The notes under the pieces: model-generated
What the model saw: only the letters and a program-made list of their open reading frames with translations
What the model was told of the DNA's origin: nothing
The model's database searches: none
Source: Methanosarcina barkeri 3
GTDB lineage: Archaea; Halobacteriota; Methanosarcinia; Methanosarcinales; Methanosarcinaceae
Assembly: GCF_000970305.1 (NCBI RefSeq)
Contig: NZ_CP009517.1
Coordinates: 4,154,001-4,218,000 of the forward strand
DNA length: 64,000 nt
Reading direction: 5' to 3'
Position numbers and translations under genes: made by a program
In this document: piece by piece, positions 4,246-42,189 of the stretch
How the letters are laid out: the number at the start of each line of letters is the position of its first letter
How positions within the stretch are numbered: the first letter of the stretch is position 1

Positions 4246-5055
4246 CTACCTACCCTTTACAATATCAAAAAACCTCTCCCCCCATTCAATGGCCTTCGAG
4301 TCGGAACTGAATAATCCTGTACTGATATCGTATTCAACGTTTCCTTTTTTGTACAGGCTCAGTGAAAGGCGTTTATTCGTAACAATGAGCCCCACTTTGA
4401 TATCTTGACCCATGACCATTAATTTGAAATTTTCATAATCTTTCAGTGCTTCTATTTTTTCCAAGTAAGGTGATTGCTTCAACTCTTCTGCAACATGAAG
4501 AGAAACTATAAGCTCAACAGGGATTCCTTCTTTCACTCTTTCAGAGATTGAATCAGCATATCCTCCGGTTACTACGGACGATATACCATATATATGATCT
4601 GCTTCTTTAATTATTTTTAACTGATTGTTGTAGACATTAAGGACTTTCATACCTTTATCCTTAAGGATTTCAGACTCGTAAAGACATCCGATTTCTTTTA
4701 ACAGAGGATCGGGAATTCCTTCAAGGTAATGTCTCAACCAGAAATGCTTAAATTTATTAATTGTCCAAAATGTTATAAAAGAGTCAGCTACTCCTAAAGC
4801 TACAATTTTTCCTGCTGGCGTCAGGAAATACTCACGTCCTTTCATCTCTATTAGATGATCTGCTTCGAGTTTCCTGAGCTTTGGAATTATAACCTTAGAA
4901 GTGCTTCCGGTAATTTCACGCAGCTGAGAAAGCTTTCTGCTGCCTTCATTTAATGACAGAAGTATCTCTGTTAGAAGTCTTGACCTGTATATTGCCTGAA
5001 TACCATCTCCCATTTCTCTATAAATTCCGAAGCCGTTCATTTCCTGCCGCCACAT
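4246..5055 (-). CDS. Winged-helix transcriptional regulator with FilR1-type (DUF1724) domain
   Basis: A 269-residue cytoplasmic DNA-binding protein. Residues about 25-95 form an ArsR-like winged helix (LTEILLSLNEGSRKLSQLRE, then TSKVIIPKLRKLEADHLIEM and the wing YFLTPAGK). Residues about 130-265 match the FilR1/DUF1724 sensor-like domain common in Methanosarcina, with YGISSVVTGGYADS, then EGIPVELIVS and LIVTNKRLSLSLY. The first ATG has a distant GAGG; the ATG six codons later (5040) is a possible alternative start. The ligand and targets are unknown, and the nearest divergent gene is the frameshifted C39-like peptidase at 5477. Confidence 0.75.
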   Translation of the reverse strand: MWRQEMNGFGIYREMGDGIQAIYRSRLLTEILLSLNEGSRKLSQLREITGSTSKVIIPKLRKLEADHLIEMKGREYFLTPAGKIVALGVADSFITFWTINKFKHFWLRHYLEGIPDPLLKEIGCLYESEILKDKGMKVLNVYNNQLKIIKEADHIYGISSVVTGGYADSISERVKEGIPVELIVSLHVAEELKQSPYLEKIEALKDYENFKLMVMGQDIKVGLIVTNKRLSLSLYKKGNVEYDISTGLFSSDSKAIEWGERFFDIVKGR

Positions 5056-32113: not shown

Positions 32114-35107
32114 TTTCCACGATTTGCTTATTTTTTTAATTTTTCTTGAAAGCTGGAAAGTGTTTCCATTTAACACCATGTTTTTATACTTATTTAAATT
32201 ACATATGAAATATTTATTTAATTTATATTTGGAGAGAAATTTAGATACACAATCAGTTTTTATTTAGAAAACAGTTATGAATCATAACTCCAGGCATCTT
32301 AATTAGATATATCCTTCAGTTAAGCTTAACAAAACACAGTAAAACACTATATAACTATGCGTAACACTTTTCAAGAGGATGCTTTGAGTCTTGCTCTTTC
32401 TTGGACTAAATAGTGAAAACACGGAATAGGCTTAAAAACTTGATTTCAAAACTTTGTTTTTCAGGTTTCTTTCCTACGAAATTACCAACTATTACTCTCT
32501 GCTACTTCTTATTTGAGGAAAAAGTTTTGGTTATGTTAGTTATGGAATCTGAATTACCGGCTTTGTAGAAATCTATCTGAACTTCAGTTTTCAGGTTAAT
32601 TTTAAAATCCAAAGTTTAAAACTGCAGTTATAGTATAGAATCGGAACTCTTTACTAGATCTAAATAAAAACTCCTCACATGGTCTTAAACTACATATAAA
32701 CAACTAAAGCAGGGAAAACAGGTAAAAAGACACATCGTTAGGGTTACAGATGATTTTTCTTTGGTTATGTCATTTGTATCAGGTCTTTCTATGCCCTTTT
32801 AAGGCTGCAAGGTATGAAAGTCTAGAACCAGCTAAACCTCGATAAGATGGGATAAAGAGTAAATCGGCACAAGAGGATTCCAGCCTCCAGTGTATTAAGC
32901 AGTTAGATAAGCTCACGATCGTCATCCAGCTCACCGATTTTTCCATAACTATAGGTGACAATTAATTAATCATAGGAACTTTTGGTTTTAAGACTAGGAA
33001 AATTGCTTTTGGTTGAAATTAAGGACTTTTACAAAGCCTTATTTTTTAATTAAAAGTTCAAATCTTTTTGTTTTAAGTCTATTCCATAACTCAAAACTGA
33101 TTCTCCAGGCCTCGAATAAGAAAGGATCAATGAGTTTCGGATCACAAAAATTAGCTCTAAAATTTTTATTTATTTAGAAGATAAAACTGATTTTGGAATG
33201 AGCTGTTTGAATATTCAAATCTTCTGTCACTTTAAAAGATTAAATCTAATTTTTATCCTTAGTTTGACAGTATAAACTAAATTAAGTAAGAGGCTTCAAT
33301 TTTTTGTCAAAAATCAATTAACAGTATTCATAAATTTCGTAAAATTGCCTCTGATTTTCCAGCTTCACAATCACTATAAAGCGAATTAGTAGAGATTTTT
33401 GTCCCATTTTATCACTTTTGGCACCTAACTTTTGGGATAGTACCTATATTTTATCTGAGATTCACGCCATCTGTCAAATTCTATACCACAATTTTGGTCA
33501 AAAATCATAATTGGTCAAAAATCATAAAAATAGCCATCAAGAGAAAGAGAATCATCTGTCAAATAGAATCGTAAAAAATTGGCAAAAATTTGTTGAAATA
33601 ATATTATGTATCATTCCAACGGATATGAAAGCAATCTTCCCACATAAAAATCAAACTGTCAAACTAAGGTTTCATTAAAAACCTTAAAATCTTATTATTT
33701 AGAACTCTTTAAGGCTCTGTTCCAAAATCCAGTGATTTTTACATTTCTTGAATGAAAATCTGAATTAGCAAGAAGAATCCCGTTTTCATCAAAATCAGTA
33801 TTCGATATCTAAAGACTTCAAACCTGAAATCACACTACAAGAATGGTGACCAGTTACAAAGTCCAGTGGTTTTGAATTTTATAGCCATCATTTGCTTCTG
33901 GTACTGAGTCCTCTTTAATTGATTCTTAAAAATATCTTTTAAATTTCAGTTCCTCTGCCTAAGCTATATCCTTATTGGATTCTCAAATAAAAGAACACAG
34001 CTGGTATGTGAAAACTCATTCTACTGAATTCTTATAACTGTTTGATCAATCACTTTAGTAGTTTCTCTAGAAAAAACATGAATCCAGTCACTTTTGCTAA
34101 GAAAAAATGATACAGGTCACATTCATGCATGAGCATGTAATCTAAACCTGTATTGGGATATCATAGAGAACGGTAACTGACTAGTAAACACCTGGGATCT
34201 ATTTCATCTGGAAAATCTTCCGAAACCGCCAAAGCTAGAACCATCGATGTACATCAGCTTAAACCTTACTATCTCTAGAAATAAGGTGATTTTTGTATAA
34301 CTTAAATAAAGCATTGACATTGTAAGTACCTCCACGTATCTACTTTCAAGCTGTCTTTTTTAATTCGTTTTCCTTCAGTTAAAATTAACTTATCTTCCAG
34401 TTTAACCTGCTTCTTCCAGTTTAACCCGCTTCCTCCAGTTTAACCCGGTTCCTCCAGTTTAACCCGGTTTACGGATTACTTCGGATAGTATGTGTCTTCG
34501 CCAAACCCCCTTAGACGTCCATTTTATATCATACTCCCAAACTATACTCCCAGGAATTTACTTTGGAACTATAGGTAAGTATAAACAATCTTGAAGATTT
34601 CCAGCTAAAAGATTCGTGAATTTGAAGAGTTATATCTTGGAAATTTAGATTGTTTATATTTGTTTCTGTCTATTAAATTTCTTAATTTATTATTAAAAAA
34701 TACTTTTTCCAATAATAAACTACTAAGGAGCATCAATACGAGAGTATACACTAAATTTATATATAATGTGAAGAACGAAAACTCCTTACAAATAATAGTC
34801 TCTTAGTTTTTGGACACAGAATCTTTTGCTACAACATTTACACAGGATTACGAAGCATGTCGTTTTTTTTGGTTTCTATTTAAATTTATCAGAGATAAAT
34901 GCCGTATGAGAGAAGCAATAGTGTTCAAAAAATATTAAGCTCTCCTGATTTTGAACTTTTTAAAAACAACTTAAAGTTTTGTACCGTTTCTTATCTCATA
35001 TTTTCAAAACTTATATTTAAAACTGTAGAAGCTTTCAAAAACTTGAATATTAAGAAAATAAAAAAGAAGTAAAAAAGTGGCAGTATTTTGTTTCTTTTGC
35101 GAAGACG
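32114..35107. other. 3-kb stretch without a recognisable gene
   Basis: AT-rich on both strands with frequent stops. I see one tandem repeat (34392-34467), a hairpin ATACAGGT...ACCTGTAT near 34110-34160, and isolated IS-end-like fragments (near 33413 and 33713). The only frame of 60 codons (32779-32961, minus) has no start signal. It may be decayed genes, untranslated RNA or both. Confidence 0.6.
34392..34467. repeat. 19-bp tandem repeat, four units
   Basis: Units 34392-34410, 34411-34429, 34430-34448 and 34449-34467, each close to TTCCTCCAGTTTAACCCGG, drifting at two or three positions. A half unit precedes. No spacers, so not a CRISPR array. Confidence 0.85.
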
Positions 35108-35132
35108 AAGTTGCCTGAAAAACAGGCAACTT
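35108..35132 (-). terminator. 10-bp hairpin beyond the small-ORF cluster
   Basis: AAGTTGCCTG (35108-35117) pairs exactly with CAGGCAACTT (35123-35132) around AAAAA. It lies 34 bases past the last small ORF. The T-rich side is on the plus strand, so it may serve either strand. Confidence 0.5.
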
Positions 35133-35166: not shown

Positions 35167-35244
35167 TTAGTCGCTGTAGAAAAATTTGAAGACTTCAGCT
35201 GTATAGGCTTTTGTGATCTGTGAATAGTAAATACTGTATATCAT
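35167..35244 (-). CDS. 25-residue small protein, paralogue of the next
   Basis: ATG 35244 to TAA 35167. Peptide MIYSIYYSQ...AYTAEVFKFFYSD. GGAGAG stands 9 bases before the ATG. It matches the 25-residue protein at 35379-35456 in length and at about 14 positions: MIY(S/A)I(Y/F)YS, then AY-AEVFKFFY-D, with Tyr and Phe making up a third of residues. It is conserved in protein while codons differ, which favours real coding. No family recognised; the aromatic, amphipathic pattern could suit a membrane-surface peptide, but that is inference. Last member of the minus-strand set of four. Confidence 0.6.
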   Translation of the reverse strand: MIYSIYYSQITKAYTAEVFKFFYSD

Positions 35245-35378
35245 ATTATCTGTCTCTCCAATATCTACTGAGTTTGTTCGCCTACCGTTATACCTCCGGC
35301 TTTCTGCAGTCAAGAAATAATAGACCATATGGTCATTCTCCGACTGCAGAAACTGTTTAATTTACAGCCTGACTAACA

Positions 35379-35456
35379 TTAGTCTTGGTAAAAGAATTTG
35401 AATACTTCAGCCACATATGCATAGCTGACATTTGAATAGAAAATAGCATATATCAT
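35379..35456 (-). CDS. 25-residue small protein, paralogue of the previous
   Basis: ATG 35456 to TAA 35379. Peptide MIYAIFYSN...AYVAEVFKFFYQD. GGGAGTGAT stands 3-4 bases before the ATG, a strong archaeal ribosome binding site. Its twin is at 35167. The gap of 134 bases between them holds GC-rich inverted pieces (CTGCAGTC.../GACTGCAG at 35305-35346), possibly a processing or regulatory structure. The function is unknown. Confidence 0.6.
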   Translation of the reverse strand: MIYAIFYSNVSYAYVAEVFKFFYQD

Positions 35457-35584
35457 AATATCACTCCCTTATTTTTATATATATCATCTGTTATCATCTG
35501 TTATACCCATCTTCTGCAATCTGAACATACAATAATTTGTCATTCTCTGCAGAGACCTTTTCCACTTCTGCTTTAGAAACTCAT

Positions 35585-35674
35585 TTAAGAGAACTGGAAA
35601 AAGAAGCAAATTTCGTTTGCAAATTGAAATAATTGGCCAAGGTCGAATCCAAAGATAATTTCTGGTAATGCCAT
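35585..35674 (-). CDS. 29-residue small hydrophobic protein
   Basis: ATG 35674 to TAA 35585. Peptide MALPEIIFGFDLGQLFQFA, then NEICFFFQFS. GAGGG lies 7 bases before the ATG, ideal spacing. One Cys and nine Phe; could lie in or along the membrane. The ribosome binding site overlaps the stop of the 46-codon ORF just upstream, so the two look translationally linked. No family recognised. Confidence 0.55.
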   Translation of the reverse strand: MALPEIIFGFDLGQLFQFANEICFFFQFS

Positions 35675-35685
35675 GCTTATTCCCT

Positions 35686-35826
35686 CTATATTTTGTATTT
35701 TCTAAATCGATACCTGCATACTGTAGATAACAATTTTATTTGCAACCTCTGTTCAGTTTTGACATAATTTTCGTTTACCAAGCCTCCAAATCGTACGGCT
35801 ACTGTCAGCCACTTAATAAGATTCAT
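35686..35826 (-). CDS. 46-residue small basic protein
   Basis: ATG 35826 to TAG 35686. Peptide MNLIKWLTVAVRFGGLVNEN, then a basic end (RYRFRKYKI). AGAGG stands 11 bases before the ATG. It is the first of four minus-strand small ORFs, following TATA-like elements at 35885-35920, and its stop is 11 bases before the next ATG. A hydrophobic start and very basic tail suggest a membrane-surface peptide, but nothing is recognised. The least certain of the four. Confidence 0.4.
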   Translation of the reverse strand: MNLIKWLTVAVRFGGLVNENYVKTEQRLQIKLLSTVCRYRFRKYKI

Positions 35827-35884
35827 GTGGTAAATTTCCTCTTATTTCAGGATATACCGTTAGAAATTTTAGCTAACAGTGACT

Positions 35885-35920
35885 GTATATAGCTATATAT
35901 ACTAAGTTATATAAGCTCAA
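35885..35920 (-). promoter_or_regulatory. Probable promoter of the small-ORF cluster
   Basis: On the minus strand: GAGCTTATATAACTTAG and, 10 bases on, AGTATATATAGCTATATAC. Either could be the TATA element; the first small ORF starts 60-80 bases downstream. The remaining gap up to 36486 is AT-rich without a gene. Confidence 0.45.
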
Positions 35921-36486
35921 TAGAAAATCATCTCCTTATGAATAATACTCCTTAAATGTTTAGAGTAAGGATTTAATATACATATATATGTTTTTTTGAC
36001 TCATAATATGTTTGAAAGTTTAAGATTTATTTCGACTTAGATCTAAATATTATATTGTTTCCCAGGTCTAAAGAAGAAATCCTTTAAAGTGTATGGTATA
36101 GCCTTCTTAGTTCTATCATCATCTTTTAAGAAAAATATGTAATATAAAAGAAGTATAAGTTTATTAGAACAGATACTTAGATAAGATTATAAATTTTTTA
36201 ATAAATACTTCTCCTATCATGAAACAACTGCAGCTTTCTATTTTCACGGTCTCTATTTCATTTGATTCCGTTTACAGTAATTTTTGACAAAGAAAAGCGT
36301 TTTATACGTAATAAATTCATCCAGAAGTCTGGAACAGTGTGTAAACCGTCAATCATGAAAACTTAGTTTTTGACTTCCGCTTTCAGAGCTAGAAGTCGGT
36401 AATTTATTGCCTTCAAATTAACTCTTTAGGCGAAAATTAAGAAAGCATAAGTTAAAATGGACTTCTTTACATAATAAGTAAAAACG

Positions 36487-37230
36487 TTGAGATTATTCGA
36501 TGTAATTTTTCATCACATTTCAGTAACTTTGGGAAAGGGGGATGTAAATATTATCAAAAATAGTTTACCTGAAGATGGATTCCCTATTGTCGGGATTTCC
36601 AACGAAAGTCTGGAAATTCCCGTGCTCTCAGACGTCGATATCAAAATTGAGAGAGTAGAACTTGTGGATATAATGGGCTCATCAGGCTCAGGGAAAAGTG
36701 TTCTTGTGAACCTTATAGATTGCCTTGACAGGCCTACTGAAGAACAAGTTCTTGTAAAGGATCGTGACCTCAATAGATTGTCAGATCAAGAGCTTGTCCA
36801 CTTTACTAAGCTTGAAATTAGTTTTGGGTCGCAGATTTTTAATCTTGCTCCACACCTGACTGACCTTGAGAATGTTTTGCTCCCAACCTTTGCAAATTTG
36901 AAAATCAATATTGATCAAGAGGGTTATGCAAGAGAACCTCTTGAAGTAACGGGACCTCATAACCGTATTCATCATAGACTAGGAGAACTTTCAAGAGGTA
37001 AGTCCAAAAGGATTTCAGTTGCATGTGTACTTATTAACGATCCTGTAATCCTTCTTGTGAATGAGCCGACTGGAAACCTTAACGCCAGAACAGGAGCCGA
37101 AATCCTTCGTATGTGTATGGATTTGAATAACGATGAGAGAACATTAGTAATCATTACACACTACCCTGAGGTTACAAAATATATTAACAGGGTTGTCCTG
37201 GTAAAAGATGGAATAATTAAATGCAACTGA
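36487..37230 (+). CDS. Degenerate MacB/LolD-type ABC ATPase
   Basis: 247 residues from a TTG without a ribosome binding site, so the start is uncertain. It is a diverged paralogue of the ATPase at 40021. Walker A is kept (GSSGSGKSV), but the signature is LSRGKSKRISVA instead of LSGGQSQRVAIA, Walker B reads VILLVNEPTGNL with Asn for the magnesium-binding Asp, and the Q-loop is disturbed (SFGSQIFNL). The H-loop His is present (ITHYPEV). The frame is whole, so it may be a low-activity or regulatory subunit, or a gene beginning to decay. It is first in a set with a COG1361 protein and a permease. Confidence 0.75.
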   Translation: MRLFDVIFHHISVTLGKGDVNIIKNSLPEDGFPIVGISNESLEIPVLSDVDIKIERVELVDIMGSSGSGKSVLVNLIDCLDRPTEEQVLVKDRDLNRLSDQELVHFTKLEISFGSQIFNLAPHLTDLENVLLPTFANLKINIDQEGYAREPLEVTGPHNRIHHRLGELSRGKSKRISVACVLINDPVILLVNEPTGNLNARTGAEILRMCMDLNNDERTLVIITHYPEVTKYINRVVLVKDGIIKCN

Positions 37231-37242
37231 AGGTGCAAGTAT

Positions 37243-38484
37243 ATGGAAATGGTTAAGAAGATTACTGTAGCAACTCTTTTTTCCTTGCTTTTGATTTCCT
37301 TGCTCTTTGCAGCTCCTGCCTCTGCAGCTGTTGGGGGAGAAAACCTGAAAGTCACAATAGTTGAAACAAATCCCTATCCTGCGAAAATAGGAGAATATTT
37401 AACTTTGACCGTTCAGGTAGAAAATATCGGAGGAAGTAAAGCTGACAATGTCGATATCGAAATTGTGCCTCAATATCCTTTCTCTCTTGATTCCGAGGCA
37501 AATGCCATAAAAAATATAGGAGTTCTCAATCCTGGCAGAACTGCTACAAAGGAATTTTACCTTTTTGTAGACAAAAATGCGCAGAAAGGAGTACGTTCCA
37601 TTGACATCAGAACAAAAACAGGTAAAAATAGCCCCTGGAGTGAGAAAAGTTTTGACATAAGAATAGGCACTGAAACATTTAACAGCAAGGGTACAGTTGA
37701 ACTTAAAGAATTTGTTTCGGACCCTGAGGTTTTCATGCCCGGAGACAGGGGTACTGTCACTGTAACTCTTAAAAACACCGCAAGTAATCCTACTGTCACT
37801 ATTGGTGGGAGTGACTTTGATACCAATGCCAGAATTCAGGCCGCAGTTTTAAGACCTTTATCTGAAGGGATAATTGTTCTTGATGCTCCTTACGGAGATA
37901 TGGGCCTTTTGGGACCCGGAGATAGCATCAAGTTGACTTTCAATGTTAAAGTTGCAGAAGACGCTCCAGAAGGAACTCACAACTTTGAACTTGCAATAGA
38001 GGGGAACTCCTTCGATTACAATAGCAGAAAGAATATTCCTCTAAAGGTCGATTCTTCAAACATAAGAGTAATTCCTTCAAAAGAACTTAAACTGACAAAT
38101 GGTGAATCTACAATCGAGTTCGATGTAGCGAACACTCATCCGAACGAGTTCAGTTCGGTAAGTATAAAACCTAAAGCTGAAGGCATCACATTTTACCCTG
38201 CGGAATATTTCATAGGGCCAATGAACCCGGACGAACTTTTTACGATTGAATTTAATGCTATCACAAATGATTCATGGAGTGCCAGTAAGGAAGGAGAGAT
38301 AAACATGAGTCTCACTGCAAACTATAATAATGGGATCAATCGACATGCAAATACTGTAGGAGACCTGAGATTTGCAAATACTTCAGAAATTGCAGAGTCT
38401 AATTCAACAACCATATTGACCGGTGGACTTATTATAATCTCTATTCCTGCCGCTTTTATGTTCTACCGAAGAAGAAAACAATAA
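37243..38484 (+). CDS. COG1361-type extracytoplasmic protein of an ABC export set
   Basis: 413 residues. Signal peptide to about residue 28 (ending PASAAVGGEN). Tandem CARDB/NEW3-like beta-sandwich domains (TVQVENIGGSKADNVDIEIV, GDRGTVTVTLKNTASNPTVT, GDSIKLTFNVKVAEDAPEGT), then a C-terminal membrane helix and RRRKQ. AAGGTG lies 7 bases before the ATG. Proteins of this type accompany MacB-like permeases in Methanosarcina and may pass substrates across or bind them outside. The middle is almost identical to the protein at 40933, while both ends differ. Confidence 0.75.
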   Translation: MEMVKKITVATLFSLLLISLLFAAPASAAVGGENLKVTIVETNPYPAKIGEYLTLTVQVENIGGSKADNVDIEIVPQYPFSLDSEANAIKNIGVLNPGRTATKEFYLFVDKNAQKGVRSIDIRTKTGKNSPWSEKSFDIRIGTETFNSKGTVELKEFVSDPEVFMPGDRGTVTVTLKNTASNPTVTIGGSDFDTNARIQAAVLRPLSEGIIVLDAPYGDMGLLGPGDSIKLTFNVKVAEDAPEGTHNFELAIEGNSFDYNSRKNIPLKVDSSNIRVIPSKELKLTNGESTIEFDVANTHPNEFSSVSIKPKAEGITFYPAEYFIGPMNPDELFTIEFNAITNDSWSASKEGEINMSLTANYNNGINRHANTVGDLRFANTSEIAESNSTTILTGGLIIISIPAAFMFYRRRKQ

Positions 38485-38525
38485 TAAGAGAAGGGATAGC
38501 TGACATCATATTTGTGGGGGAAAAT

Positions 38526-39740
38526 ATGATAAAATTTGCACAGGCAGCTCGTATAGCATCTGGGAGTATAGGAAGTGCTAAGCTAAGGTCTGTACTTACA
38601 ACATTGGGGATAGTAATTGGCATAGCTGCAGTAGTTGTTAACGCATCTCTTGGTGCCAGTTTTAACCAGTTTTTTACTGACGAGATATCTTCTGTAGGCT
38701 CTAACTTTATTATCGCAGCTAGTGAGCAGCCAAATCTCTTCTTTGATAACGAGTACAATATAATGAAGAATACACCGGGAATTTCCGGCGTATCTCCAAG
38801 AAAATCGATGAGTGGGGATCTCACGTATCTTTCTGAAACTAAAAATGTGAATACTGCAGGAGTTAACAAAGATTTTCAAGAAATCCAGGGACTGCAAATG
38901 GAAGAGGGCACTTTTCTGACAGATAAAGATAGCGCTGCGGCTGTTCTTGGATACGATATTGCAAATGACAAGTTCAGTAAGAATATTTCCCACAGGAGCA
39001 CTGTAGAGATCGCTTTTCGACAGGAGAACGGTACGGTTGTAAAGAAGAGTTTTAAGGTAAAAGGAATATTGAAAAATTCCAAGCCAACTGTTGTGAGTGA
39101 GGACAGTGACTATGATTTGACAGTCTTCATTCCCGTTTCTACTATGAATGAGATGATCGGGGAAAAAGATTATGGAGCTTTCCTTGCAATGGCAGAAAGT
39201 CCTGCAAAAGTTCGTGACATTTCAGATGAAGTCGATAGCAGATTAGCCAGAAATTTCGGAGTGCCGGAAAGAGATATTGATGAAGAGGATTTAAAACCCT
39301 ATTACGTCTTTAATCAGGAGGAAGTTCTTGAGCAGACTGGAAAAATAGGGGATGCTTTGAGTTCTTTCCTGCTTGTTCTTGCCTTAATATCTCTCTTTGT
39401 GGGCTCCATAGGAATTATGAATATTATGCTTGTGACCGTAACTGAAAGAACTAGAGAAATAGGGATAATGAAATCTGTAGGCTATAGCAACTCCAATATT
39501 CTATCTCTTTTCTTGCTAGAATCTATAATGGTCAGTTCCTTTGGAGGAATTGTAGGCACTATAATCGGTAGTCTGGGAGCTTATGCTCTTGAAATTACTC
39601 TTAAACTTCCTCCTGTATTTCCCTTAACATTGATCGAAATAGGGATTGCAGTTTCGGTTCTTGTTGGGATAACTGCTGGTTTATATCCTGCAAGAAAAGC
39701 TGCACGCATGAATCCTGTGGACGCTTTAAGATATGAATGA
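38526..39740 (+). CDS. MacB-like ABC transporter permease
   Basis: 404 residues from ATG 38526, which has GTGGGGGA 4-5 bases upstream; an in-frame GTG at 38514 lies in that site. One N-terminal membrane helix (LRSVLTTLGIVIGIAAVVVN), a large MacB periplasmic-core-type outside domain (about 45-275), then the FtsX module of three helices (GIMNIMLVTVTERTREIGIM, ending ARKAARMNPVDALRYE). This is the mechanotransmission type of exporter, driven by an ATPase such as that at 40021. It has the only permease of the two sets here. Confidence 0.9.
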   Translation: MIKFAQAARIASGSIGSAKLRSVLTTLGIVIGIAAVVVNASLGASFNQFFTDEISSVGSNFIIAASEQPNLFFDNEYNIMKNTPGISGVSPRKSMSGDLTYLSETKNVNTAGVNKDFQEIQGLQMEEGTFLTDKDSAAAVLGYDIANDKFSKNISHRSTVEIAFRQENGTVVKKSFKVKGILKNSKPTVVSEDSDYDLTVFIPVSTMNEMIGEKDYGAFLAMAESPAKVRDISDEVDSRLARNFGVPERDIDEEDLKPYYVFNQEEVLEQTGKIGDALSSFLLVLALISLFVGSIGIMNIMLVTVTERTREIGIMKSVGYSNSNILSLFLLESIMVSSFGGIVGTIIGSLGAYALEITLKLPPVFPLTLIEIGIAVSVLVGITAGLYPARKAARMNPVDALRYE

Positions 39741-40020: not shown

Positions 40021-40884
40021 ATGAAAATGAAAACTTCGATTAAAGATGTTTCTGCTCCCGGAGATTTAATCTTGGAGACAGAAGTAGATAATCCTACACT
40101 AGAAGTAGAACTGCCCTCTAAAGAAGGTCTCGTTAATTCAAACGAAGAATCATTTAAATGTAAACTGGGCCGTTCGAAATGTCTGAAGAGTGACGAACAT
40201 AGAACAACAACTCCCGTTATTGAAGTTATTGATGTCAAAAAGAGCTATACTCTTGGAGATCTGGAGGTTCCAATTCTTCATGATATAAACCTTGAAGTGA
40301 GAGAGGGAGAGTTCCTTGCCATAATGGGACCCTCCGGTTCAGGGAAGAGCACACTTATGAATCTTGTAGGTTTTCTTGATAGGCCTACGGAAGGAACAAT
40401 CATAATCAAAGGTCTGGATATCAATAAACTGTCTGATAAGGAAGTTGCCAGGCTCAGAGGGTTAGAAATCGGTTTTGTTTTTCAGACATTCAACCTGATC
40501 CCCAGACTCACGGCTCTTGAAAATGTTGAGCTTCCAACCTATGCTAACACAAGGAGTGGAGTTAATACTCATGAAAGAGCAAAGGAGTTACTTAAACTTG
40601 TAGGTCTCGAGGATCGAATGTATCATAAACCAGGTGAGCTTTCAGGTGGTCAATCCCAGAGAGTTGCTATTGCCAGAGCTCTTATCAATGACCCTGCGAT
40701 CCTCCTTGCAGATGAGCCCACTGGAAATCTTGACTCGAAGACAGGGTGTGAAATTCTAAATATATTTAGAAAACTTAATGGAGACGGAAGAACCATTGTA
40801 ATGATTACTCACGATCCGGAAATTGCAGGATATGCAGACAGGATAGTGCTCGTAAAGGATGGAATTATTCAGAATGCGGAATAA
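40021..40884 (+). CDS. MacB/LolD-type ABC transporter ATPase with N-terminal extension
   Basis: 287 residues, AGGAG 6 bases before ATG. The ATPase core begins at about residue 68 (IEVIDVKKSYTLGDLEVPIL) with intact Walker A GPSGSGKST, Q-loop FVFQTFNLIP, signature LSGGQSQRVAIARAL, Walker B ILLADEPTGNLD and H-loop ITHDPEI. The first about 65 residues are an acidic/polar extension with two Cys (FKCKLGRSKCLKS), unusual for this family. It is likely the working motor for the permease at 38526 together with the COG1361 proteins. A TATA-like TATATTATATAG lies at 39958. Confidence 0.9.
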   Translation: MKMKTSIKDVSAPGDLILETEVDNPTLEVELPSKEGLVNSNEESFKCKLGRSKCLKSDEHRTTTPVIEVIDVKKSYTLGDLEVPILHDINLEVREGEFLAIMGPSGSGKSTLMNLVGFLDRPTEGTIIIKGLDINKLSDKEVARLRGLEIGFVFQTFNLIPRLTALENVELPTYANTRSGVNTHERAKELLKLVGLEDRMYHKPGELSGGQSQRVAIARALINDPAILLADEPTGNLDSKTGCEILNIFRKLNGDGRTIVMITHDPEIAGYADRIVLVKDGIIQNAE

Positions 40885-40932
40885 TCCTGGTGTTTACTTT
40901 AAAACTCAAGCGAATCTGGGTGTGGAATTAGA

Positions 40933-42189
40933 ATGACAATTATCAAAAATTCATTTGTTCCTCTAGTATTATCTTTGCTTTTGATTTCTTTGCTTTTTTC
41001 AGTTCCTGCCTCTGCAGCTGTTGGAAGGGCAAATCTGAAAGTCACAATAGTTGAAACAAATCCCTATCCTGCGAAAATAGGAGAATATCTGAATCTGACT
41101 GTCCAGGTAGAAAACATTGGGGGAGATAAAGCCGACAACGTTGACATCGAAGTTGTGCCTCAATATCCTTTCTCTCTTGATTCCGAGGCAAATGCCATAA
41201 AAAATGTAGGATCCCTCAATCCTGGCAGAACTGCTACAAAGGAATTTTACCTTTTTGTAGACAAAAATGCGCAGAAAGGAGTACGTTCCATTGACATCAG
41301 AACAAAAACAGGCAAAGATAGTCCCTGGAGTGAGAAAAGCTTTGACATAAGAATAGGCACTGAAACATTTGACAGCAAGGGCACAGTTGAACTTAAGGAA
41401 GTTACTTCGGACCCCGATGTTTTCATGCCCGGAGACAGGGGTACTATCACTGTGACTCTTACGAACACTGCAAGTAGTCCTACTGTCACTATTGGTGGGA
41501 GTGACTTTGATACCAATGCCAGAATTCAGGCCGCAGTTTTAAGACCTTTATCTGATGGGATAGTCGTTCTTGATGCTCCTTACGGAGATATGGGCCTTTT
41601 GGGACCCGGAGATAGCATCAAGTTGACTTTCAATGTTAAAGTTGCAGAAGATGCTCCAGAAGGAACTCATAACCTTGAACTTGCAATAGAGGGGAACTCC
41701 TTCGATTACAATAGCAGAAAGAATATTCCTCTAAAGGTCGATTCTTCAAACATAAGAGTAATTCCTTCAAAAGAACTTAAACTGACAAATGGTGAATCTA
41801 CAATTGAATTCGATGTAGCCAATACACATCCGAACGAGCTTAGCTCTGTAAGTATAAAACCTGAAGCTAAAGGCGTCACATTTTATCCTGTTGAGTATTT
41901 CATAGGACCAATGAACCCGGACGAACTTTTTACGATTGAATTTAATACAGTAACAGATAGTTTATCAGATGACGGAAGAAATTTCTCCGAGCCTATAAAT
42001 CTAACACTTTCGGCAAATTACAGCAACGGAATAAACAAGCACGAGAACATAGTAAGCAACATGTATATTCAGTCCATTGAGGAAACTCAGGGAGAAAGTT
42101 CAAGCATGATTATCCCAGGTTTACTACTTGTTGTCATCGCTATTGCTGGTATGTTAGTTTACAGAAAGAAGAAACAGAGCAGAAAATGA
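40933..42189 (+). CDS. COG1361-type extracytoplasmic protein, second copy
   Basis: 418 residues, signal peptide, repeated CARDB/NEW3-like sandwiches and a C-terminal membrane helix with a Lys-rich tail, as in the protein at 37243. From about residue 30 to 300 the two differ at only a few positions, and the DNA is also near identical over long runs, while the signal peptide and last 80 residues have diverged. This points to gene conversion after an older duplication. It follows the intact ATPase by 48 bases; no permease follows, so it may share the one at 38526. Confidence 0.75.
   Translation: MTIIKNSFVPLVLSLLLISLLFSVPASAAVGRANLKVTIVETNPYPAKIGEYLNLTVQVENIGGDKADNVDIEVVPQYPFSLDSEANAIKNVGSLNPGRTATKEFYLFVDKNAQKGVRSIDIRTKTGKDSPWSEKSFDIRIGTETFDSKGTVELKEVTSDPDVFMPGDRGTITVTLTNTASSPTVTIGGSDFDTNARIQAAVLRPLSDGIVVLDAPYGDMGLLGPGDSIKLTFNVKVAEDAPEGTHNLELAIEGNSFDYNSRKNIPLKVDSSNIRVIPSKELKLTNGESTIEFDVANTHPNELSSVSIKPEAKGVTFYPVEYFIGPMNPDELFTIEFNTVTDSLSDDGRNFSEPINLTLSANYSNGINKHENIVSNMYIQSIEETQGESSSMIIPGLLLVVIAIAGMLVYRKKKQSRK

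Follow-up and report, generated by a model that had tools for sequence, protein, structure and literature searches.

On comparative evidence, an apparently empty 4.4-kb stretch of the genome of Methanosarcina barkeri 3 holds at least four genuine genes, which encode proteins of 25-38 amino acids and are kept across Methanosarcina. The stretch was analyzed within a segment of 64,000 nucleotides (contig NZ_CP009517.1, positions 4,154,001 to 4,218,000), referred to here as the window; coordinates of the features are given in Table 1. Three of the genes form an array in which gene B is followed by two tandem copies of gene A, and the fourth, gene C, lies 0.85 kb 3' of the array. Comparison among genomes establishes, at the level of sequence, the genes themselves, selection on their coding frames, their conservation and operon order, a covarying leader shared with other loci, and linkage of the array to the proximal paralogue of a neighbouring ABC cluster. 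The best reading of these data, to which even chances are given, is that the B-A operon and gene C belong to a Methanosarcina micro-protein regulon whose peptides are membrane-associated and work with the adjacent ABC system.

Table 1. Features of the small-gene locus and its surroundings (positions in the window).
Feature	Position	Strand	Evidence or remark
Second, weaker leader/promoter element upstream of C	34701..34801	-	R1 model E 0.0022 in window
Gene C, MSMLYLSYTKITLFLEIVRFKLMYIDGSSFGGFGRFSR, 38 aa, SD GGAGG	34204..34320	-	conserved; synonymous excess; predicted helix
Terminator region: hairpin AAGTTGCCTGTTTTTCAGGCAACTT (35132-35108), then T-runs	35040..35132	-	region conserved 3' of arrays
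Gene A copy 2, MIYSIYYSQITKAYTAEVFKFFYSD, 25 aa, SD GGAGAG	35167..35244	-	as copy 1
Hairpin TTTCTGCAGTCGG...GACTGCAGAAA between both A genes	35301..35352	-	conserved intercistronic structure
Gene A copy 1, MIYAIFYSNVSYAYVAEVFKFFYQD, 25 aa, SD GGGAG	35379..35456	-	family of 79 units; synonymous excess
Hairpin GGTCTCTGCAG...TTGCAGAAGA between B and first A	35508..35557	-	conserved shape, 5/9 pairs with compensatory changes
Gene B, MALPEIIFGFDLGQLFQFANEICFFFQFS, 29 aa	35585..35674	-	homologues of 24-31 aa head every array; synonymous excess P=0.027
46-aa ORF, non-conserved, part of leader	35686..35826	-	stops in most of 21 genomes
Promoter and structured 5' leader (R1 class) of B-A array	35771..35951	-	R1 model E 2e-5 in window
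TATA box TTATATAA	35907..35914	-	nearly invariant among 21 aligned leaders
Upstream promoter box TATTATTCATAAGGAnnTnnnnTTCTATT, candidate regulator site	35919..35947	-	nearly all array genomes
Array-proximal MacB/LolD-type ATPase, divergent	36487..37230	+	degenerate motifs LSRGKSKR, NEPT in window genome
COG1361/CARDB-type surface protein, array-proximal copy	37243..38484	+	proximal copies group apart from distal
MacB-type permease of ABC cluster	38514..39740	+	synteny
Distal ATPase (motifs intact) and distal COG1361 copy	40021..42189	+	synteny, motifs

Small genes of the array and gene C

The initial annotation had described a cryptic operon of four very small, Phe/Tyr-rich proteins, each preceded by a ribosome binding site. 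The positions of the four minus-strand ORFs (46, 29, 25 and 25 aa), their ATG starts and the purine-rich motifs were confirmed, as were the TATA box upstream and the strong hairpin with T-runs downstream. The assumption that such a series would rarely arise by chance also held. In a first-order Markov model of the 4.4-kb stretch, in which SD-ATG ORFs of 20-60 codons were counted, none of 2000 simulated strands contained four within 660 nt; 0.27 were expected per strand, and five were observed on the minus strand and none on the plus strand. Under this stricter SD-ATG rule the AGAGG motif of the 46-aa ORF is too distant from its ATG, while a 53-aa N-terminally extended form of the last ORF and another ORF at 34320 are admitted. 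Conservation and synonymous bias within Methanosarcina support the 29-aa and both 25-aa ORFs, which are under purifying selection and syntenic, but not the 46-aa ORF. Among the 21 genomes that harbor the array, the 46-aa frame is intact solely in the genome of the window and in those most closely related to it, and it is broken by stops in most of the others, so that it was rejected as a gene. The surrounding DNA, by contrast, is well preserved as far as distant species over the whole span between the upstream box and the SD of B, TTATATAA included, and the ORF is therefore read as part of the leader. Three features had been overlooked: the two 25-aa ORFs are tandem paralogues, a conserved tiny gene (family C) follows the array, and the leader is common to many other tiny-ORF loci.

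An array of B followed by tandem A genes is present in 21 of 31 Methanosarcina genomes, with 28 copies of B and 79 of A in total. The A units were gathered with a profile that took both 25-aa peptides of the window as its starting point, and one B copy (in G008) was missed by the B profile and recognised by eye. All A units begin with ATG behind a G-rich SD, encode 25-28 residues and share the consensus MxFSxxYSxVxxxYxAExFKFFYCx. Each array contains two to seven of them at spacings of 129-365 nt; in the window, the two copies are 212 bp apart and show 73% DNA identity across a 91-nt tandem repeat. B always stands first, in one to three copies with start codon and SD. The members of this family have 24-31 residues, 28% of them Phe, and the consensus FGFNLxQxFxFxNN. 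One genome (G009) carries the B-A-A cassette three times. For 62 of the 79 A units the nearest relative is located in the same array, which indicates that copies were duplicated or homogenised locally.

Selection on the coding frames was assessed in pairs of nearest units, the expectation being obtained by redistributing the same substitutions. Family A showed 91 synonymous changes against 66 +/- 5.5 expected (P<=0.0005) and no excess in frames +1 and +2, family B 46 against 37 (P=0.027), and family C 48 against 32.6 +/- 3.8 (P<=0.0005). In close A pairs, pN/pS is about 0.4. A decayed fragment of a larger protein, which the 53-aa frame over the second A copy had brought to mind, was rejected because the 25-aa start, the SD and the length recur in 79 units.

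Gene C belongs to a family of 32-44 aa proteins (MFFYLSYTKITFYIQIIRLKIMYISG...). Each of the 21 array genomes carries one member 3' of the array, always in the same position, and G025 has it there as well; start codon and SD are carried by 21 C genes. The C profile is collinear with the A profile (hhalign E 8e-4 in one comparison, probability 24%), and judged by this alignment C and A are perhaps distant relatives. The AlphaFold model of C consists of one helix at residues 2-26 (pLDDT 74 overall, about 90 in residues 11-20). An imperfect tandem repeat of the 19-bp unit TCTTCCAGTTTAACCCGCT lies at 34393-34468 of the window, in the untranslated stretch that separates C from the second leader.

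The A and B profiles match the same genomes and nothing convincing beyond Methanosarcina. When 238 genomes of the class were searched with the A profile, only the genus rose above noise; weak A matches elsewhere in the family Methanosarcinaceae were judged to be due to chance. Plasmid and phage records, searched with regard to a mobile or viral origin, yielded no match. A, C and a few of the Gly/Cys/Trp-rich peptides described below were compared with Pfam and NCBIfam, and a few sequences of B with NCBIfam and PADLOC, in each case with no match. A PDB search gave weak partial matches only.

Leader RNA and the loci that share it

A hairpin, GGTYTCTGCAGGGAA...TTCCCgATTGCAGAAGACC, separates the genes in many arrays; five of its nine pairs show compensatory changes, and a core GTATAACGGGGGATGAACAAA follows it ahead of the SD. 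Where the spacers are short, the hairpin has been lost, but the core and the ORFs remain. The arrangement of a leader-peptide attenuator was not encountered: the A array ends in a terminator region, after which only the tiny gene C and then unrelated genes follow. A terminator-like match in G006 was examined as a possible array locus and proved not to be one. Transcription of the array is expected to start about 25 nt downstream of the TATA box. The upstream promoter box has a further copy in another genome (L190, G030:C1, about position 5000), where it precedes an acyltransferase-like gene carried by a 58-kb replicon.

The wider distribution of the leader emerged from a weak A match in genome G001, which we take to be M. 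acetivorans. Following it up revealed another locus, at which two A-type ORFs of 27 aa are nearly identical; its upstream region matches many places, two of them in the window's own genome, and most of the places matched carry tiny ORFs. The aligned leaders share a box ACTATTTAATGgTAAGtA...ATTCTaT, followed by TTTATATAA, and a segment TATACTC...GGCAATT that pairs with AATTGCC...GAGTATA about 70 nt later. A model of this leader class (R1) was built from 15 leaders of other loci, none of them from arrays. At E<=0.01 it found 132 sites in 28 of the 31 Methanosarcina genomes, and these include the array leaders. In the window it recognised the elements ahead of B and of C (Table 1) and no other below E 0.5; most array loci show such a second match ahead of C. 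Across 115 copies of the 12-pair stem, 88% of cells are paired and 219 double changes occur, compared with at most 51% and at most 60 in slid controls, in an alignment that had been fitted to the leader structure and thus favours it. In the array leader of the window several pairs of helix 1 are non-standard, and helix 2 holds. A search of Rfam returned only SRP RNA and tRNA matches for the window, and none at E<=0.1 in six loci of the regulon.

Among the 97 leaders inspected outside the main arrays, including the C leader of the window, 75 are followed within 700 nt by a tiny SD-ATG ORF, as against 21% of random positions. The encoded peptides, often in tandem, form Phe/Tyr-rich (A-like), Ile/Phe-rich and Gly/Cys/Trp-rich groups; examples from the window genome itself are MWFGNCGWGGCGGWGWRRWRGCGWGGCGGWW and MGGFPFFKKFDNCGCGCGCGGG...KEVCCITAVRACKIKG.... 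A minority of leaders precede longer genes, namely those for a 110-aa secreted Tyr/Gly-rich protein, for a DUF362 protein and, in another genus, for a secreted protein of about 500 aa.

Several individual loci illustrate this variety. Three leader loci lie close together in the window genome (L301, G000:C1:660500-668500; leaders at 928, 1955 and 3216) with Gly/Cys/Trp-rich peptides of 31-71 aa; one of them has two tandem variants, and two have in common a C-terminal CITAVRAC.IKG motif, which also occurs in relatives from many species. In M. acetivorans, three leaders occur within 3 kb (L253, C1:3011000-3017000): the pair of 27-aa A-type ORFs follows one, a pair of identical 37-aa Gly/Cys/Trp-rich ORFs follows another, and the third has no clear ORF. 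At six loci (L325, L329, L332, L333, L335, L339) the leader stands ahead of a conserved secreted protein of about 110 aa (MGKQIS...YYGPDSGY.GGY). In two genomes of another genus of the family (G036 and G039; L342 and L341), the box and a stemmed leader precede the secreted protein of about 500 aa, and G022 has a similar gene behind the leader. Since box and stem occur in this other genus, the leader either is older than the peptide arrays or has been exchanged.

In the mechanism proposed here, one promoter with a structured 5' leader would drive B and the two tandem A genes, and the second, weaker leader would serve C. With the same box and leader placed ahead of several tiny-ORF loci per genome, a common regulator acting at the box, the leader RNA or both may switch these loci together. 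At its broadest, the proposal is a new class of structured RNA leader, possibly a riboswitch or RNA sensor, that co-controls many tandem genes for Phe/Tyr-rich and Gly/Cys/Trp-rich peptides of 25-75 aa acting together at the membrane or surface, and that is absent from the literature searched; its chances are put at somewhat below even.

The adjacent ABC cluster

An ABC cluster of constant composition lies divergently beside the array at each of the 19 loci examined; it consists of a proximal ATPase, a COG1361 protein, a MacB permease, a distal ATPase and a distal COG1361 protein. A tree of the COG1361 proteins separates proximal from distal copies (support 92/99), and therefore the set was probably doubled early in Methanosarcina, as judged from this branching. 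The array is found at this place in 21 of the 23 genomes that possess the proximal copy and in none of the three with the distal copy alone (G006, G019 and G022). The two genomes that kept the proximal set without an array there are G011 and G025. G025 has retained the promoter and C, and G011 harbors a likely diverged B-A-A-A array elsewhere, behind the same leader (L337). In the clade of M. acetivorans-like genomes (L087, L093, L094, L098, L099) the array is followed directly on its 3' side by a convergent gene for a DEAD-box RNA helicase in place of the ABC-2 pair; a helicase is also located near the orphan A gene of G002.

Although the cluster adjoins every array examined, A-type loci elsewhere, in M. 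acetivorans and G002, have no ABC neighbour. Furthermore, the proximal ATPase of the window genome no longer has the standard residues of the signature and Walker B motifs, and some relatives have a degenerate or truncated version of it, which disfavours a simple dependence between array and transporter. In the proposed functional tie, the B, A and C peptides would act with, or be handled by, the array-specific MacB/COG1361 ABC system.

Possible functions of the peptides

Both A (GRAVY 0.55, net charge about 0) and B (GRAVY 1.15, net charge about -1) are hydrophobic, and together with the helix predicted for C this suggests a location at the cytoplasmic membrane. The strong SDs and repeated gene copies would provide a high dosage of very short aromatic peptides. 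The Phe/Tyr-rich peptides are probably membrane-associated and probably work with the neighbouring ABC system, in line with the membrane or signal peptides that the initial annotation had listed, either of which is possible for the locus. This reading is strained by the lack of significant helical amphipathicity in A and B, and by the secreted proteins and Gly/Cys/Trp-rich peptides that the regulon includes, the latter having no obvious part to play at the membrane.

These same loci make the strongest rival, albeit an unlikely one, the view that the hydrophobic and Gly/Cys/Trp-rich peptides alike serve a structural or adhesive purpose in the cell envelope or matrix, for which they would be produced in large amounts under a single condition and exported, with A, B and C leaving via the adjacent ABC transporter. 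High copy number and strong SDs would fit bulk synthesis, the sister loci encode low-complexity Gly/Trp/Cys/Phe peptides, the leader also precedes the 110-aa Tyr/Gly-rich secreted protein in several genomes and the ~500-aa secreted protein in another genus, and the neighbouring COG1361 proteins are surface proteins. However, A, B and C have no signal peptide, and A and C hold conserved charged residues besides their aromatic ones.

Peptides of 20-31 aa that lack a leader sequence are encoded several to an operon in the PSM-alpha operon, which is associated with an ABC exporter, and in leaderless bacteriocins of the aureocin A70 type. The array resembles these systems in combining several tiny ORFs without signal peptide with a nearby ABC cluster of the peptide-export type, but a leaderless multi-peptide bacteriocin or PSM-like system exported by that transporter is improbable. 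The net charge is near zero in A and slightly negative in B, the helical hydrophobic moment does not exceed that of column-shuffled controls (P 0.36 for A, 0.66 for B), and other A-type loci lack a transporter. A classical amphipathic or cationic antimicrobial peptide, a role of the kind considered in the initial annotation, is likewise unsupported, and the multi-locus regulon with an RNA leader sets the Methanosarcina array further apart from these operons.

In enterobacteria, Ibs/Sib and Ldr/Rdl are type I toxin loci with tandem copies of tiny hydrophobic ORFs. The likeness of the array to them, together with its structured intercistronic hairpins, would suit type I toxin-antitoxin-like modules, in which tandem hydrophobic membrane toxins are checked by antisense RNA or by the leader. 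This explanation, raised earlier for the locus, is very improbable: no conserved antisense promoter was found, as antisense TATA-like sites differ in place between clades, are absent in most, and trace to Tyr-Lys codons in one group. Genus-wide conservation and fixed synteny are unlike mobile addiction modules, and unlike Ibs/Sib and Ldr/Rdl the array is archaeal, alternates two families per operon and has a shared structured leader. In the least probable explanation, RNA is the functional product, leader and array transcript being regulatory and translation secondary. The strongly covarying leader stem and the conserved intercistronic hairpins would suit it, but A and C show a synonymous excess that, for A, is absent from the control frames; the 79 A units are also constant in ORF length, start and SD, and short-spacer arrays lose the hairpins while keeping the ORFs.

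The regulon of membrane-associated micro-proteins remains the preferred reading and can be placed beside published work. A search of openly accessible papers found no account of such arrays or leaders, which is weak evidence of novelty. A Ribo-seq census of M. mazei reports 314 unannotated small ORFs (PMC11456600); as far as its main text describes them, they resemble the genes studied here in being tiny, mostly intergenic, often genus-restricted and in some cases membrane-associated, and a term search of that text turned up neither tandem arrays nor a leader or regulon common to several loci. MtrI of M. mazei (PMC12774963) is likewise an overlooked small protein conserved in Methanosarcinales, but with 68 aa, a zinc ribbon and a stand-alone single gene it bears no resemblance to A, B or C.

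Little work has addressed small proteins or structured mRNA leaders in archaea. Several of the micro-protein families described here are under selection, match no known family and have one recurring, covarying leader in common, in a genus for which genetic tools exist and of which one species, M. mazei, has a Ribo-seq dataset. The findings provide a defined regulon to test, a candidate new class of archaeal regulatory RNA and a case in which genes of 25 codons have been amplified in tandem. They show that empty-looking stretches of methanogen genomes can be dense in conserved genes.
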